This document shows, one piece after another, positions 10,756 to 52,033 of a stretch of DNA of 64,000 bases. Position numbers and translations under genes: made by a program. The DNA is from an uncultured Pelagibacteraceae bacterium (GTDB lineage Bacteria > Pseudomonadota > Alphaproteobacteria > Pelagibacterales > Pelagibacteraceae): positions 1-64,000 of the forward strand of contig CACMRM010000003.1 in NCBI GenBank assembly GCA_902616145.1. Reading direction: 5' to 3'. Positions within the stretch are counted from its first letter, which is position 1, and each line of letters opens with the position of its first letter. A model generated the notes under the pieces. That model saw only the letters and a program-made list of their open reading frames with translations, was not told the origin of the DNA and searched no databases.

Positions 10756-11652
10756 TTATTCTCTTCCAAAGTCTGGTTTTTTAGTATCTTGTCCAGCTTC
10801 AATAATTTCTTTTCTTACTTTTTTAGTTGATGAAAATATTTCTAAAAGCTTTTCACTGTTTTTATTTTTAATAGCGCTTTTAATATCATCAAGATTTTTT
10901 GAATAATTATCTAAAACTTTCAATATATTTTCACTGTTATCAATAAAAATATCTTTCCACATCAAAGGATCTGACGCAGCAATTCTAGTAAAATCTCTTA
11001 ATCCTCCAGCACTATATTGAATAACATCATTTTTAAATTTGTCCTCATTATTAATTGCAGTTCTAACAATGCTGTATGCAACTGCATGTGGAAGGTGACT
11101 TGTTAAAGATAAAACATAATCATGGTCTTCAAATGACATGATTTTAACTTTACTTCCTAATTTGGACCAAAATTTTTCTAGGTTTTCTATTTTATCCTTA
11201 GCAACTTGATTACCAGCTGAAAGAATGCACCATCTATTTTTAAATAAACTTGAAAATCCTGCAGTAGGTCCGCTATGTTCTGTTCCAGCTATTGGGTGTG
11301 AAGCTATCCAGCTAATATTTTTAAGACCTAAATTGTTTACAATTTTGTTAACCTCTTTTTTAGTGGAACCAGTATCGGTAAGAATAGATCCTTCCTTTAA
11401 GTTTGATTTTATAGAAAGCAAAATTTCTTTGTAACTGCTTAATGGTGCAGAAATTATTATCAAGTCTGCATCTTTTGTTGACTCTGTCACATTAGAACAG
11501 ATATCAGCTGTAAAATTTTTTTTTAAATATTCCATGACTTTGATTGACTTGTCGTGAACACTTATTTTTTTAGCTAATTTTTTTTCCTCAGTTGCTCTCA
11601 GAATTGAGGAGCCAATCAATCCGCAACCAATGATACTTATTTTACTGAACAT
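10756..11652 (-). CDS. tyrA: Prephenate/arogenate dehydrogenase (TyrA family)
   Basis: Oxidative decarboxylation of prephenate (or arogenate) in tyrosine synthesis; 298 aa. It has an N-terminal Rossmann motif GCGLIGSS (residues 9-16). The catalytic segment SHPIAGTEHSGP (about 118-129) carries the conserved His. The helical C-terminal dimerisation domain contains LTSHLPHAVAYS and AGGLRDFTRIA. No fused chorismate mutase or ACT domain is present, so it is a monofunctional cyclohexadienyl dehydrogenase. It overlaps hisC by 11 bp; that pair next to metXW is usual in alphaproteobacteria. HisC-type aminotransferases can also act in Tyr/Phe synthesis, which explains the coupling. Confidence 0.94.
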   Translation of the reverse strand: MFSKISIIGCGLIGSSILRATEEKKLAKKISVHDKSIKVMEYLKKNFTADICSNVTESTKDADLIIISAPLSSYKEILLSIKSNLKEGSILTDTGSTKKEVNKIVNNLGLKNISWIASHPIAGTEHSGPTAGFSSLFKNRWCILSAGNQVAKDKIENLEKFWSKLGSKVKIMSFEDHDYVLSLTSHLPHAVAYSIVRTAINNEDKFKNDVIQYSAGGLRDFTRIAASDPLMWKDIFIDNSENILKVLDNYSKNLDDIKSAIKNKNSEKLLEIFSSTKKVRKEIIEAGQDTKKPDFGRE

Positions 11653-12727
11653 TTAAAATTTTTCTCATTTTTTTAATTAATGCAATATTTTCTGATGTTG
11701 TCCCAATGGTTATTCGTAAAGAATTTTTAATTCCATAAACATCCATTTTACGGACCAGTATTCCTGATTTTGCGAGCAATCCAAATACTTTAGCAGAATT
11801 TATTTTAACTTTGTCAAATTTGAGCAATAAGAAATTAGTAAAACTTTTATTTGTTTCTATTCCCATTTTTTTGAACTCAGAATACATTTTTTTACTCCAT
11901 TTATTTACGTGTTTAATTTCTTTATTCAACCATGGACTGTCTTTTAGAGCAGCAGAAGCTGCAAACAAAGCTGGTCTACTCACATTAAAAGGTGGCTTAA
12001 CCTTATTTAATGCAGAAATAATTTCTTTTGATCCATATCCCCAGCCCACTCTGAGCCCTGCTAAACCATATATTTTTGAAAAAGTTCTTGTCATAACTAC
12101 ATTTTTAAAATTTGTAAAAGTTTTTAAACCAGACAAATAATCCTTATTTTTTACATACTCAAAATAAGCATCATCTACTACCAACAAGATATCGCTTCTT
12201 AGTTTTTTTCTTAAAAAGATTAATTCTTTCTTTGGAATATAAGTTCCAGTTGGATTGTTTGGGTTAGCAAGGAAAACTATTTTAGTTTTTCTTGTAACTT
12301 TTTTGAGTATATCTTCAGTTGAAACAGTAAAATTATTCTCTTTAGAATAAACAACTTTTGCTCCATTCATTCTACTGTAAATTCTGTAAATTATAAAACT
12401 AAACTTAGGGACTATAACTTCATCTCCTCTCTTTAGGAACGATTTACATATAAGTTCAAAAATTTGATCAGAACCTGATCCTAAGATTATTCTATTTTTA
12501 TCAATCTTAAACTTCTTAGCTAGCGTATTTCTTAAAAAGGTTCCATCGGAGTCAGGGTATCTTGCAAAGTTTTTTGAAACTTCTAAGTATTGTTTTCTTG
12601 CTTTCGGGCTAGGCCCAAGAGCAGACTCATTAGCAGATAATTTAATCTTTGCTAATTTACTCTTGAATAAGCTCATTCCAGCTACATATTTTTCTGCAAC
12701 AATGTTATTTGGTTTCGGAAATCTCAT
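11642..12727 (-). CDS. hisC: Histidinol-phosphate / aromatic aminotransferase
   Basis: Fold-type I PLP aminotransferase, 361 aa. The Schiff-base lysine is in TRTFSKIYGLAGLRVGWG (Lys about 216). FLANPNNPTGTY (about 152-163) and DDAYFEY (about 183-189) are the cofactor-binding motifs. The N-terminus LSANESALGPSP is the HisC substrate loop. The translationally coupled tyrA suggests a role in tyrosine as well as histidine synthesis, as seen for alphaproteobacterial HisC2-type enzymes; sequence alone cannot separate the two. It is transcribed away from the metX riboswitch region. Confidence 0.93.
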   Translation of the reverse strand: MRFPKPNNIVAEKYVAGMSLFKSKLAKIKLSANESALGPSPKARKQYLEVSKNFARYPDSDGTFLRNTLAKKFKIDKNRIILGSGSDQIFELICKSFLKRGDEVIVPKFSFIIYRIYSRMNGAKVVYSKENNFTVSTEDILKKVTRKTKIVFLANPNNPTGTYIPKKELIFLRKKLRSDILLVVDDAYFEYVKNKDYLSGLKTFTNFKNVVMTRTFSKIYGLAGLRVGWGYGSKEIISALNKVKPPFNVSRPALFAASAALKDSPWLNKEIKHVNKWSKKMYSEFKKMGIETNKSFTNFLLLKFDKVKINSAKVFGLLAKSGILVRKMDVYGIKNSLRITIGTTSENIALIKKMRKILNVQ

Positions 12728-12787: not shown

Positions 12788-12816
12788 TTGACAAGTTTGT
12801 GATGATTTAGTAAACA
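12788..12816 (+). promoter_or_regulatory. Putative promoter of metXW
   Basis: A perfect -35 TTGACA (12788-12793) is followed after 17 bp by a weak -10 TAAACA (12811-12816). Transcription would begin at about the first base of the SAM-II aptamer (12821), the spacing expected for a riboswitch promoter. Confidence 0.55.
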
Positions 12817-12820
12817 TTAC

Positions 12821-12873
12821 TCGCGCTGATTTAACCATATTGCAAGCGCATAATAAATGTAGCTAAAAAGGGG
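12821..12873 (+). promoter_or_regulatory. SAM-II riboswitch aptamer
   Basis: The sequence follows the SAM-II (metA motif) consensus closely. P1 is GCGCT (12823-12827) pairing with AGCGC (12845-12849). The conserved loop GATTTAACCATATTGCA lies between them. The 3' pseudoknot strand TAATAAATGTAGCTAAAAAGG ends the aptamer. SAM-II elements bind S-adenosylmethionine and repress methionine synthesis genes in alphaproteobacteria; metX directly downstream fits. Here a terminator follows, so control is probably by transcription attenuation. Confidence 0.93.
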
Positions 12874-12875
12874 AC

Positions 12876-12901
12876 GCCCAGTTTAGCTGGGCTTTTTTTT
12901 T
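12876..12901 (+). terminator. Intrinsic terminator of the SAM-II attenuator
   Basis: GCCCAG (12876-12881), loop TTTAG, CTGGGC (12887-12892), then nine T residues (12893-12901). The T-run ends two bases before the metX ATG (12904). TTTAGCT (12882-12888) is perfectly complementary to AGCTAAA (12861-12867) in the aptamer 3' strand, giving a ready antiterminator. Confidence 0.9.
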
Positions 12902-12903
12902 GG

Positions 12904-14043
12904 ATGAATAAAAAACTTGAGAATATAAAGAAATTAGTCATTAATAATCCGCTTAAATTAGACTGTGGAAAAACTATAAAAGATTTTCCTCTCGCTTACG
13001 AAACTTACGGAAAGTTGAATGATAACAAAGACAATGCCGTACTTGTGTTTCATGCGTTAACAGGAGATCAGTTCGTGACTGAAACAAATCCTATTACTAA
13101 TAAAGAGGGATGGTGGATCACAGCAGTGGGTCCAGGAAAGGCAATAGATACAAACAAATATTTTGTTATTTGTGCAAATGTGATCGGAGGGTGTATGGGT
13201 TCTTTAGGTCCGAAAGATATTAATCCAGAAACAAAAAAACCTTACGGATTGGATTTTCCAGTTATAACAATTAAAGATATGGTTAGAGCTCAGGAATCAT
13301 TACTTGAACATCTTGGAATTAAGAAACTTTTATGCGCGACGGGGGGCTCAATGGGTGGAATGCAACTTTTACAATTTTGTGCAACATTTCCAGATAAAGC
13401 TTTTTCAGCTGTTCCGATAGCTTGTAGCTCAAGTCATAGTGCTCAAAATATCGCTCTAAATGAATTAGCTCGTCAAGCAATTATGGCAGATCCAGTATGG
13501 GATAATGGAAAATATGTTTTAAAAAACGTTCAACCTAAAAATGGATTAGCAGTTGCAAGAATGGTTGGGCACATAAGTTATTTATCTGAAAAAGGTATGC
13601 AGGAAAAATTTGGAAGAAAATTACAAGAAAAGGCAGATTATGAATTTAGTTTTAATGCTGACTTTCAGGTTGAAAGTTATTTGAGACATCAAGGCTATGC
13701 ATTTGTTGAAAGGTTTGATGCAAATTCTGTACTATATATAACCAGAGCGATGGATTATTTTGATCTTTCAAAACAATTTAAAGGAGGTTTAGTAGAAGCA
13801 TTTAAAAATCAAAAAACAAAATTCTTAATAATATCATTTTCCTCTGATTGGCTTTATACAACAAAAGATAACAAAGATATAGTAATAGCATTAAACGCAT
13901 CAGGTGCAGATGTATCATATTCTGAGATAGTTACTGACAAAGGACATGACTCTTTTTTACTTAATGAATCTGAATTTTTAAAAACTCTTAAAGGTTTTAT
14001 AGATTCAATGTATGAAAAATTTAAAAATGAAAAAAGAATTTAA
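12904..14043 (+). CDS. metX: Homoserine O-acyltransferase, MetX type
   Basis: Activates homoserine (acetyl-CoA or, in some MetX proteins, succinyl-CoA) at the start of methionine synthesis by transsulfuration or direct sulfhydrylation. 379 aa, alpha/beta-hydrolase fold. The nucleophile elbow is GGSMGGMQ (Ser about 149). The acid is in FSSDWLYT (about 315) and the His in KGHDSFLL (about 348). HALTGDQF forms the oxyanion region. The start follows the attenuator T-run immediately, with only GG before ATG and no Shine-Dalgarno. It is controlled by the SAM-II element. MetX acyl preference is not assigned here. metW overlaps its 3' end. Confidence 0.95.
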   Translation: MNKKLENIKKLVINNPLKLDCGKTIKDFPLAYETYGKLNDNKDNAVLVFHALTGDQFVTETNPITNKEGWWITAVGPGKAIDTNKYFVICANVIGGCMGSLGPKDINPETKKPYGLDFPVITIKDMVRAQESLLEHLGIKKLLCATGGSMGGMQLLQFCATFPDKAFSAVPIACSSSHSAQNIALNELARQAIMADPVWDNGKYVLKNVQPKNGLAVARMVGHISYLSEKGMQEKFGRKLQEKADYEFSFNADFQVESYLRHQGYAFVERFDANSVLYITRAMDYFDLSKQFKGGLVEAFKNQKTKFLIISFSSDWLYTTKDNKDIVIALNASGADVSYSEIVTDKGHDSFLLNESEFLKTLKGFIDSMYEKFKNEKRI

Positions 14044-14620
14044 AGTAATCGCAGATTTATTACCTAATAACTCTAGAGTTCTTGATATAGGGTGTGGAGA
14101 CGGATCTTTAATGCATCTTCTTAAAATCGAAAAAAACATAGAGGTACGTGGACTAGAGCTCAATCAAGATAATGTTCAAGAATGTATTTATAAAGGCTTA
14201 CCAGTTATACAGGGTAATGCAGAAACTGAATTACATCAATTTCCTGATAAATCATTTGACTATGTTGTGTTGAGTCAAACCTTGCAAGCATTTTATGAGC
14301 CAGAAAAAGTTTTAAAAAATCTTTTAAGAATAGGAAAATCAGTTGTCATTTCAATTCCTAATTTTGGCTATTGGAAAGTAAGAACAAAGCTTTTACTTTT
14401 TGGTGAAATGCCGGTTACAAAAACACTGCCAAATACTTGGTATAATACCCCTAATTTACACATGTGCACAATAAAAGATTTATTTAATTTTTGTGATGAT
14501 AAAAACATTATTATCAAAAAAGTTGTTGGAGTTAATGAAAATAAGACTTCATTGATAAAAAAAAGTAATTTAGAAATTAAAAATCTTTTTTCAAAAGTTG
14601 GTATTTTTTTAATCGGTTAA
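14027..14620 (+). CDS. metW: MetW, methionine biosynthesis partner protein
   Basis: About 197 aa, class I SAM-methyltransferase-like fold with motif I VLDIGCGDGSL (about 18-28). IPNFGYWKVR and PVTKTLPNTWYNTPNLHM are the blocks typical of MetW. MetW is encoded beside metX in many proteobacteria and is needed for MetX activity or methionine synthesis. I chose the ATG at 14027 because the protein then begins MKKEFKVIADLLPNN, aligning with the usual MetW start; an ATG at 14012 would add five residues. Either start overlaps the metX end. Confidence 0.92.
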   Translation: MKKEFKVIADLLPNNSRVLDIGCGDGSLMHLLKIEKNIEVRGLELNQDNVQECIYKGLPVIQGNAETELHQFPDKSFDYVVLSQTLQAFYEPEKVLKNLLRIGKSVVISIPNFGYWKVRTKLLLFGEMPVTKTLPNTWYNTPNLHMCTIKDLFNFCDDKNIIIKKVVGVNENKTSLIKKSNLEIKNLFSKVGIFLIG

Positions 14621-51931: not shown

Positions 51932-51954
51932 TTTTATAACGTCCAATACCTATC

Positions 51955-52033
51955 GCACTAGTGGGCGAACCTTCGCTGACTAGTGTCGACACTCTTGTTT
52001 TCAAGAGCACCGCAAAAACATGTGTATTTGCGG
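51955..52033 (-). ncRNA. Three-hairpin structured element in the ffh 5' leader
   Basis: Three successive perfect stems occupy the gap between ffh and dapF. H1: CACTAGT (51956-51962) with ACTAGTG (51979-51985), enclosing GCGA/TCGC. H2: CTCTTG (51992-51997) with CAAGAG (52002-52007), four-base loop. H3: CCGCAAA (52010-52016) with TTTGCGG (52027-52033). A 10-bp palindrome GTGTCGACAC (51983-51992) bridges H1 and H2 and could form an alternative fold. A minus-strand promoter candidate just beyond H3 would put all three in the ffh leader. No T-tract follows. From memory, a structured RNA upstream of ffh has been proposed in Candidatus Pelagibacter; I could not verify identity. Not a 4.5S RNA: no GGAA-capped SRP helix is present. 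Confidence 0.7.

Follow-up and report, generated by a model that had tools for sequence, protein, structure and literature searches.

The stretch of DNA analysed here (the window, 64,000 nucleotides) belongs to a SAR11 (Pelagibacteraceae) genome of 1.04 Mb, and the nearest named metX loci, including that of HIMB058, are all from Pelagibacteraceae. The divergent genes hisC (11642-12727, minus strand) and metX are separated by a 176-base intergenic stretch, and metX is overlapped by metW, with which it is probably co-transcribed. A scan of the metX leader for a consensus promoter gave no match, and the -35 and -10 boxes listed in Table 1 were assigned from relatives: TTGACA and the TA at 12811-12812 are without variation among the 81 leaders compared, and TTGACA-16/17-TATAAT-like boxes occur at the equivalent place in other SAR11 leaders. 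The metX transcript is expected to start at about 12822-12824.

Table 1 Features of the metX leader and adjoining genes (positions in the window)
Feature	Position	Strand	Basis
Probable promoter: TTGACA 12788-12793, 17-base spacer, TAAACA 12811-12816	12788-12816	+	Comparison with relatives
SAM-II aptamer, counterpart of the crystallised 52-nt metX RNA (3 of 52 bases differ)	12821-12872	+	RF00521 and sequence comparison
P1 stem (12823-12827/12845-12849) and loop L1 (12828-12844)	12823-12849	+	Fold; stem columns nearly invariant
Shared strand UAGCUAAAAAGGG: P2b/P2a of the SAM-bound pseudoknot, also 5' side of the putative antiterminator	12860-12872	+	Conservation and folding; P2 role from SAM-II literature
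Putative antiterminator hairpin: 12860-12867/12882-12889, inner helix 12870-12872/12877-12879	12860-12889	+	Best unliganded fold
Intrinsic terminator hairpin GCCCAGTTTAGCTGGGC (RNA GCCCAGUUUAGCUGGGC)	12876-12892	+	Terminator scan, fold, conservation
U9 tract, expected termination zone	12893-12901	+	T9 in 80 of 81 leaders, T10 in one
metX, homoserine O-acetyltransferase, 379 aa	12904-14043	+	NF001209, 509.9 bits
metW, overlaps metX	14012-14620	+	TIGR02081, 235.5 bits

The leader has the hallmarks of the SAM-II class, with a P1 stem, an L1 loop containing GAUUU and UUGC, and a 3' GCUAAA that is followed by the G residues of P2a, and it lies upstream of methionine/SAM genes (metX-metW). The closest structural reference is the metX SAM-II riboswitch from the Sargasso Sea metagenome, a 52-nt RNA described with crystal structure 2QWY by Gilbert et al. 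(2008). The RNA published as SAM-II-WT-RS has the sequence UCGCGCUGAUUUAACCGUAUUGCAAGCGCGUGAUAAAUGUAGCUAAAAAGGG (PMC8494917). Its numbering (C43, G50, G51) agrees with that of 2QWY. We take this 52-mer to be the 2QWY RNA. In the window, 49 of the 52 aptamer bases are equal to it, and such near-identity with a crystallised SAM-binding RNA suggests that the metX leader aptamer also binds SAM. The exact 52-mer occurs in 2 of the 169 genomes of the window's genus, before metX, and is followed there by GATGCCCAGTTTAGCTGGGCTTTTTTTTTGGATG.

Automatic annotation is likely to miss this RNA. A lax scan of a 233-base stretch with the Rfam model RF00521 gave a match at 12813-12887 with 25.6 bits (E 4.6e-4), whereas a scan of the whole window at the gathering cut-off of 36 bits missed the aptamer, and this cut-off was passed in none of 297 SAR11 genomes. 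The fault lies with the cut-off and not with the RNA, since even leaders with the exact crystallised 52-mer (L009, L010) reach only 34.1 bits. Because the cut-off rejects every SAR11 SAM-II found in the 297 genomes, automatic annotation overlooks the riboswitch in a group that ranks among the most abundant in the sea. The tally of RF00521 matches, 218 of 297 genomes, includes some SAM-V-like leaders due to cross-matches: the 84-nt matches in seven leaders (L119, L123, L139, L142-L145) are SAM-V-like (GCTAAAGGAGGCAAATG) and not SAM-II, and in these GCUAAAGGAGG leads straight into a Shine-Dalgarno (SD) sequence and start codon. The GCUAAA strand is common to SAM-II and SAM-V aptamers. Elsewhere in the window, the minus strand carries an ffh motif RNA (RF01793, 42.4 bits, 51948-52000), which was earlier described from SAR11.

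The terminator scan of the region returned exactly one terminator-like site, the hairpin at 12876-12892, with 0.2 expected in shuffled sequences. It is followed by the T9 tract and by GG, which fills the gap to the metX ATG at 12904, 11 bases past the hairpin. The original prediction, made from the DNA letters and their open reading frames, had proposed an antiterminator in which the aptamer strand AGCUAAA (12861-12867) pairs with UUUAGCU (12882-12888); its coordinates and the 7-bp complement are exact, and hairpin, T9, GG and ATG are all in place. The prediction had overlooked an inner GGG/CCC helix that, with a U12860-G12889 pair, extends the antiterminator; P2b (GCUAAA) and P2a (GG) each contribute a strand to it. 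Such a complement is rarely obtained by chance: when the 5-nt loop on the terminator stem was randomised, TTTAGC arose in 0.2% of trials, and of random 6-bp hairpins 0.5% carried a 6-nt complement to AGCTAAA.

Taken in isolation, the antiterminator has a calculated stability of -13.8 kcal/mol, versus -11.1 kcal/mol for the 7-bp terminator. When the unliganded leader is folded stepwise, the antiterminator appears from emergence of base 12886 and is the best fold for 3' ends 12886-12900, whereas with L1 and the P2 strands blocked, which mimics the SAM-bound pseudoknot, the terminator is best from 12889 on. Since the energy model ignores pseudoknots and kinetics, this agreement with the predicted switch is a consistency check, not a demonstration. 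Among 66 distinct leaders, the antiterminator was the best structure in 48, versus 7 of 660 with random loops; the other 18 of the 66 count against the switch. The equilibrium fold of the complete leader contains an extended hairpin between AAAAAGG and the U-tract; this candidate was rejected, as it becomes best only once the 3' end has reached 12901, when the decision has already been made.

Conservation was examined in an alignment of the window with 80 metX loci of other Pelagibacteraceae (protein identity 90-97%), which holds 67 distinct sequences among its 81 leaders. The arrangement of aptamer, terminator, T tract and ATG is the same in all 80 relatives. Terminator columns are near-fixed, with 78 to 81 of 81 leaders agreeing in the stem and 80, 81, 81, 81 and 81 in the successive positions of the UUUAG loop; as a control, the major-base frequency at 73 fourfold-degenerate sites within metX averages 0.606 and is above 0.93 at none of them. 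Because terminators need no fixed loop, and this loop is nevertheless invariant, a second constraint must act on it. The original prediction had made its antiterminator depend on preservation of the complement in close relatives, and the complement is indeed preserved, with at least 6 contiguous base pairs in all 81 leaders and 7 in 75. The distance from hairpin to ATG and the length of the T tract (nine in 80 of 81) are also fixed, though homopolymers drift easily; the fixed T9 length might be maintained for termination, for initiation on a leader rich in U, or for both.

The same complementarity returns in a paralogous leader with an otherwise different terminator. SAR11 genomes carry a second SAM-II in tandem with SAM-V, which in the window's genome (L184, G000:C12:3118-3182) precedes a gene that was called metY-like on inspection of its translation. 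The terminator of this leader, ACCACCGCUUUAGCCGGUGGU followed by U9, differs from that of metX except for UUUAGC, so that this motif is common to two leaders with unlike stems, GCCCAG..CUGGGC and ACCACCG..CGGUGGU. In leaders of the latter type the complement is lengthened to 9 bp by a matching change (GCG/CGC), and nine pairs are possible between the aptamer strand GCUAAAGCG and its complement CGCUUUAGC. Between SAM-V and the metY-like gene lie an extra short open reading frame and repeated SD-like GGAGAA stretches. Overall, a hairpin was present in 115 SAR11 leaders, with some genomes counted twice; at least 6 contiguous complementary bases were found in 114 of these, and the exception has 8 of 9 matching.

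An intrinsic terminator thus lies between aptamer and gene, and an antiterminator indicated by sequence, conservation and folding shares the ligand-bound strand and excludes the terminator. We put the probability that the SAM-II riboswitch governs metX (and probably metW) mainly through transcription attenuation at roughly four in five. In the proposed mechanism, the strand UAGCUAAA..GGG would have two mutually exclusive partners. With SAM bound it would be kept in the P2b/P2a pseudoknot, the terminator GCCCAGUUUAGCUGGGC-U9 would form and the polymerase would stop just upstream of the metX start codon. When SAM is scarce, the strand would pair with UUUAGCUG in the loop and 3' arm of the terminator, and its GGG would pair with the CCC of the 5' arm; formation of this antiterminator would preclude the terminator and allow transcription of metX. 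SAM would in this way shift the balance between terminator and antiterminator, with termination occurring within the U9 tract. SAM-II aptamers with terminators downstream are an established kind (PMC1273637, PMC2258182).

The published model for the near-identical crystallised metX RNA is different, namely occlusion of the ribosome-binding site (RBS) (PMC6061858, PMC10907184, PMC12434664, PMC9373788). Applied to the window, it would mean that SAM binding hides the SD sequence AAAGG(G) at the aptamer 3' end and that the hairpin is incidental. The apparent RBS plausibly stems from the ATG that most leaders (63 of 81) carry directly after GGGG, in frame with metX. This ATG, 30 bases upstream of the metX ATG, was rejected and cannot be the common start, since it is missing in frame from 18 of 81 leaders: the window has ACG at this codon, and eleven relatives have TAG. 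The metX ATG that is kept in 81 of 81 leaders lies 31 bases past GGGG with hairpin and U9 in between, so no SD at the aptamer end is found at working distance from the conserved start codon, and even where the adjacent ATG exists GGGG abuts it with zero spacing. As occlusion of this site would moreover leave the invariant terminator and loop unexplained, we consider purely translational control highly improbable. The original prediction was right that there is no SD before metX, but the special difficulty that it saw in such a start is unsupported: among the 62 long open reading frames of the window, an SD-like 4-mer was present at -18 to -5 in 12, versus 7 at control positions, and an SD-less metX start is ordinary for this genome.

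The terminator may also be real but constitutive, limiting metX expression and yielding a leader RNA while SAM takes effect elsewhere, for instance at a distant SD. There is precedent in Sinorhizobium meliloti metA, where the terminator that follows SAM-II has been validated and keeps expression down in both media; no antiterminator driven by SAM-II could be predicted for it, which speaks against the attenuation model (PMC9373788). As in most metX leaders, this terminator lies between an aptamer-adjacent AUG and the true, in-frame downstream AUG, and the latter depends on an SD located in the aptamer, 74 nt upstream (PMC9373788). However, a constitutive terminator needs no fixed loop, whereas here the loop is invariant and complementary to P2b in two paralogous leaders, and random loops almost never yield the antiterminator fold. 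We therefore regard this explanation as unlikely, if slightly less so than occlusion of the aptamer-end SD. A contribution of dual control, in which the hairpin in read-through RNA would hinder ribosome binding with SAM bound in addition to acting on transcription, is possible but doubtful. The gap of 11 bases between hairpin and AUG, kept in 81 leaders, is just above the 10 used for dual platforms (PMC2258182), but the gap is longer in other SAR11 genera with the same terminator (L012, L121, L122, L126), which indicates that the distance is not required everywhere. Dual control is compatible with attenuation and secondary to it.

The tandem SAM-II/SAM-V of Pelagibacter ubique (bhmT) was reportedly described by Poiata and co-workers in 2009. 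Like the metX leader, it consists of SAM-II, a hairpin and U9, with a P2b strand that can pair with the loop and 3' arm of the terminator, but the stem sequence differs, the antiterminator comprises 8-9 contiguous bp, and SAM-V and an SD follow further downstream, whereas metX has SAM-II alone (PMC9481103, PMC11508383). In strain HTCC1062 the complementary pair is CUAAAGCG/CGCUUUAG. The linker of this tandem RNA was found to block the SAM response of SAM-II, which the authors considered puzzling (PMC11508383). Since the linker contains the same complement to the P2b strand, a preformed antiterminator would account for the block; the antiterminator model does not directly explain why an oligonucleotide placed on the U-tract restores the SAM response (PMC11508383).

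Canonical alphaproteobacterial SAM-II riboswitches (Corbino et al. 2005; S. meliloti metZ) resemble the metX leader in having an aptamer, a terminator before the gene and a predicted OFF switch. Among 30 loci from other alphaproteobacteria, 22 had a recognisable hairpin, and in 9 of these the terminator and aptamer share a complement of at least 5 bases, which always involves the P2a strand (e.g. AGGUCGG) and nearly always the terminator 5' arm. In SAR11, on the other hand, P2a is short and it is the P2b strand that pairs with terminator loop and 3' arm. Within SAR11, the metX SAM-II of HTCC1062 has been listed as acting on transcription, with no detail (PMC5069961). In the genus of this strain (g4), metX SAM-II leaders are without a GC-rich terminator, and the aptamer is directly followed by a U-tract of about 6-8 (L189, the HTCC1062 metX leader, and L013, L019, L022-L025, L028, L029, L138, L140, L141, L146-L151). 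A downstream CUCACAAUUCA (or CUCUCAAUUCA) matches the complement of L1 UGAAUUGCGAG except for one constant mismatch, which suggests another kind of expression platform, where the aptamer loop may be unfolded by a strand downstream of it. Three leaders of another genus (g5; L130, L131, L132) place SAM-II before an apparent metW instead of metX, with a third, A/U-rich kind of terminator.

The type of mechanism, SAM-II with a terminator, is thus already known: terminators downstream of SAM-II were noted when the class was discovered (PMC1273637), and the class is judged mostly transcriptional (PMC2258182). The statement in the original prediction that SAM-II is usually said to mask the ribosome site is correct for the crystallised metX RNA, which is treated as the translational case with an RBS embedded in P2, but not for the class, which is mostly held to be transcriptional (PMC6061858, PMC10907184, PMC2258182); the prediction identified the switch itself and overlooked both its near-identity with that RNA and the known SAM-II terminators. 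The surprise is that the crystallised "translational" RNA has, in the two genomes that carry it, the same terminator and antiterminator complement as the window, only three bases behind the 52-mer. The metX SAM-II RNA, on which most structural work on the class is based, is quite probably a transcription attenuator in its native context, exchanging its P2b strand with the loop and 3' arm of a terminator 14 bases downstream.

This matters since the SAM-II RNA that has been studied most is presented as a model case of ribosome-site occlusion, and results from smFRET, NMR, SAXS and simulation have been read accordingly. The folding studies used an RNA that ends three bases short of the terminator hairpin. 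If the native competitor of the pseudoknot is the antiterminator, the decisive state would be set during transcription, by folding rates. The view that SAM-II stands out because no shared strand is exchanged (PMC12434664) would then be wrong for the metX RNA, and there would be an explanation for the puzzling block that the linker in the tandem RNA of P. ubique imposes on SAM binding by SAM-II (PMC11508383).
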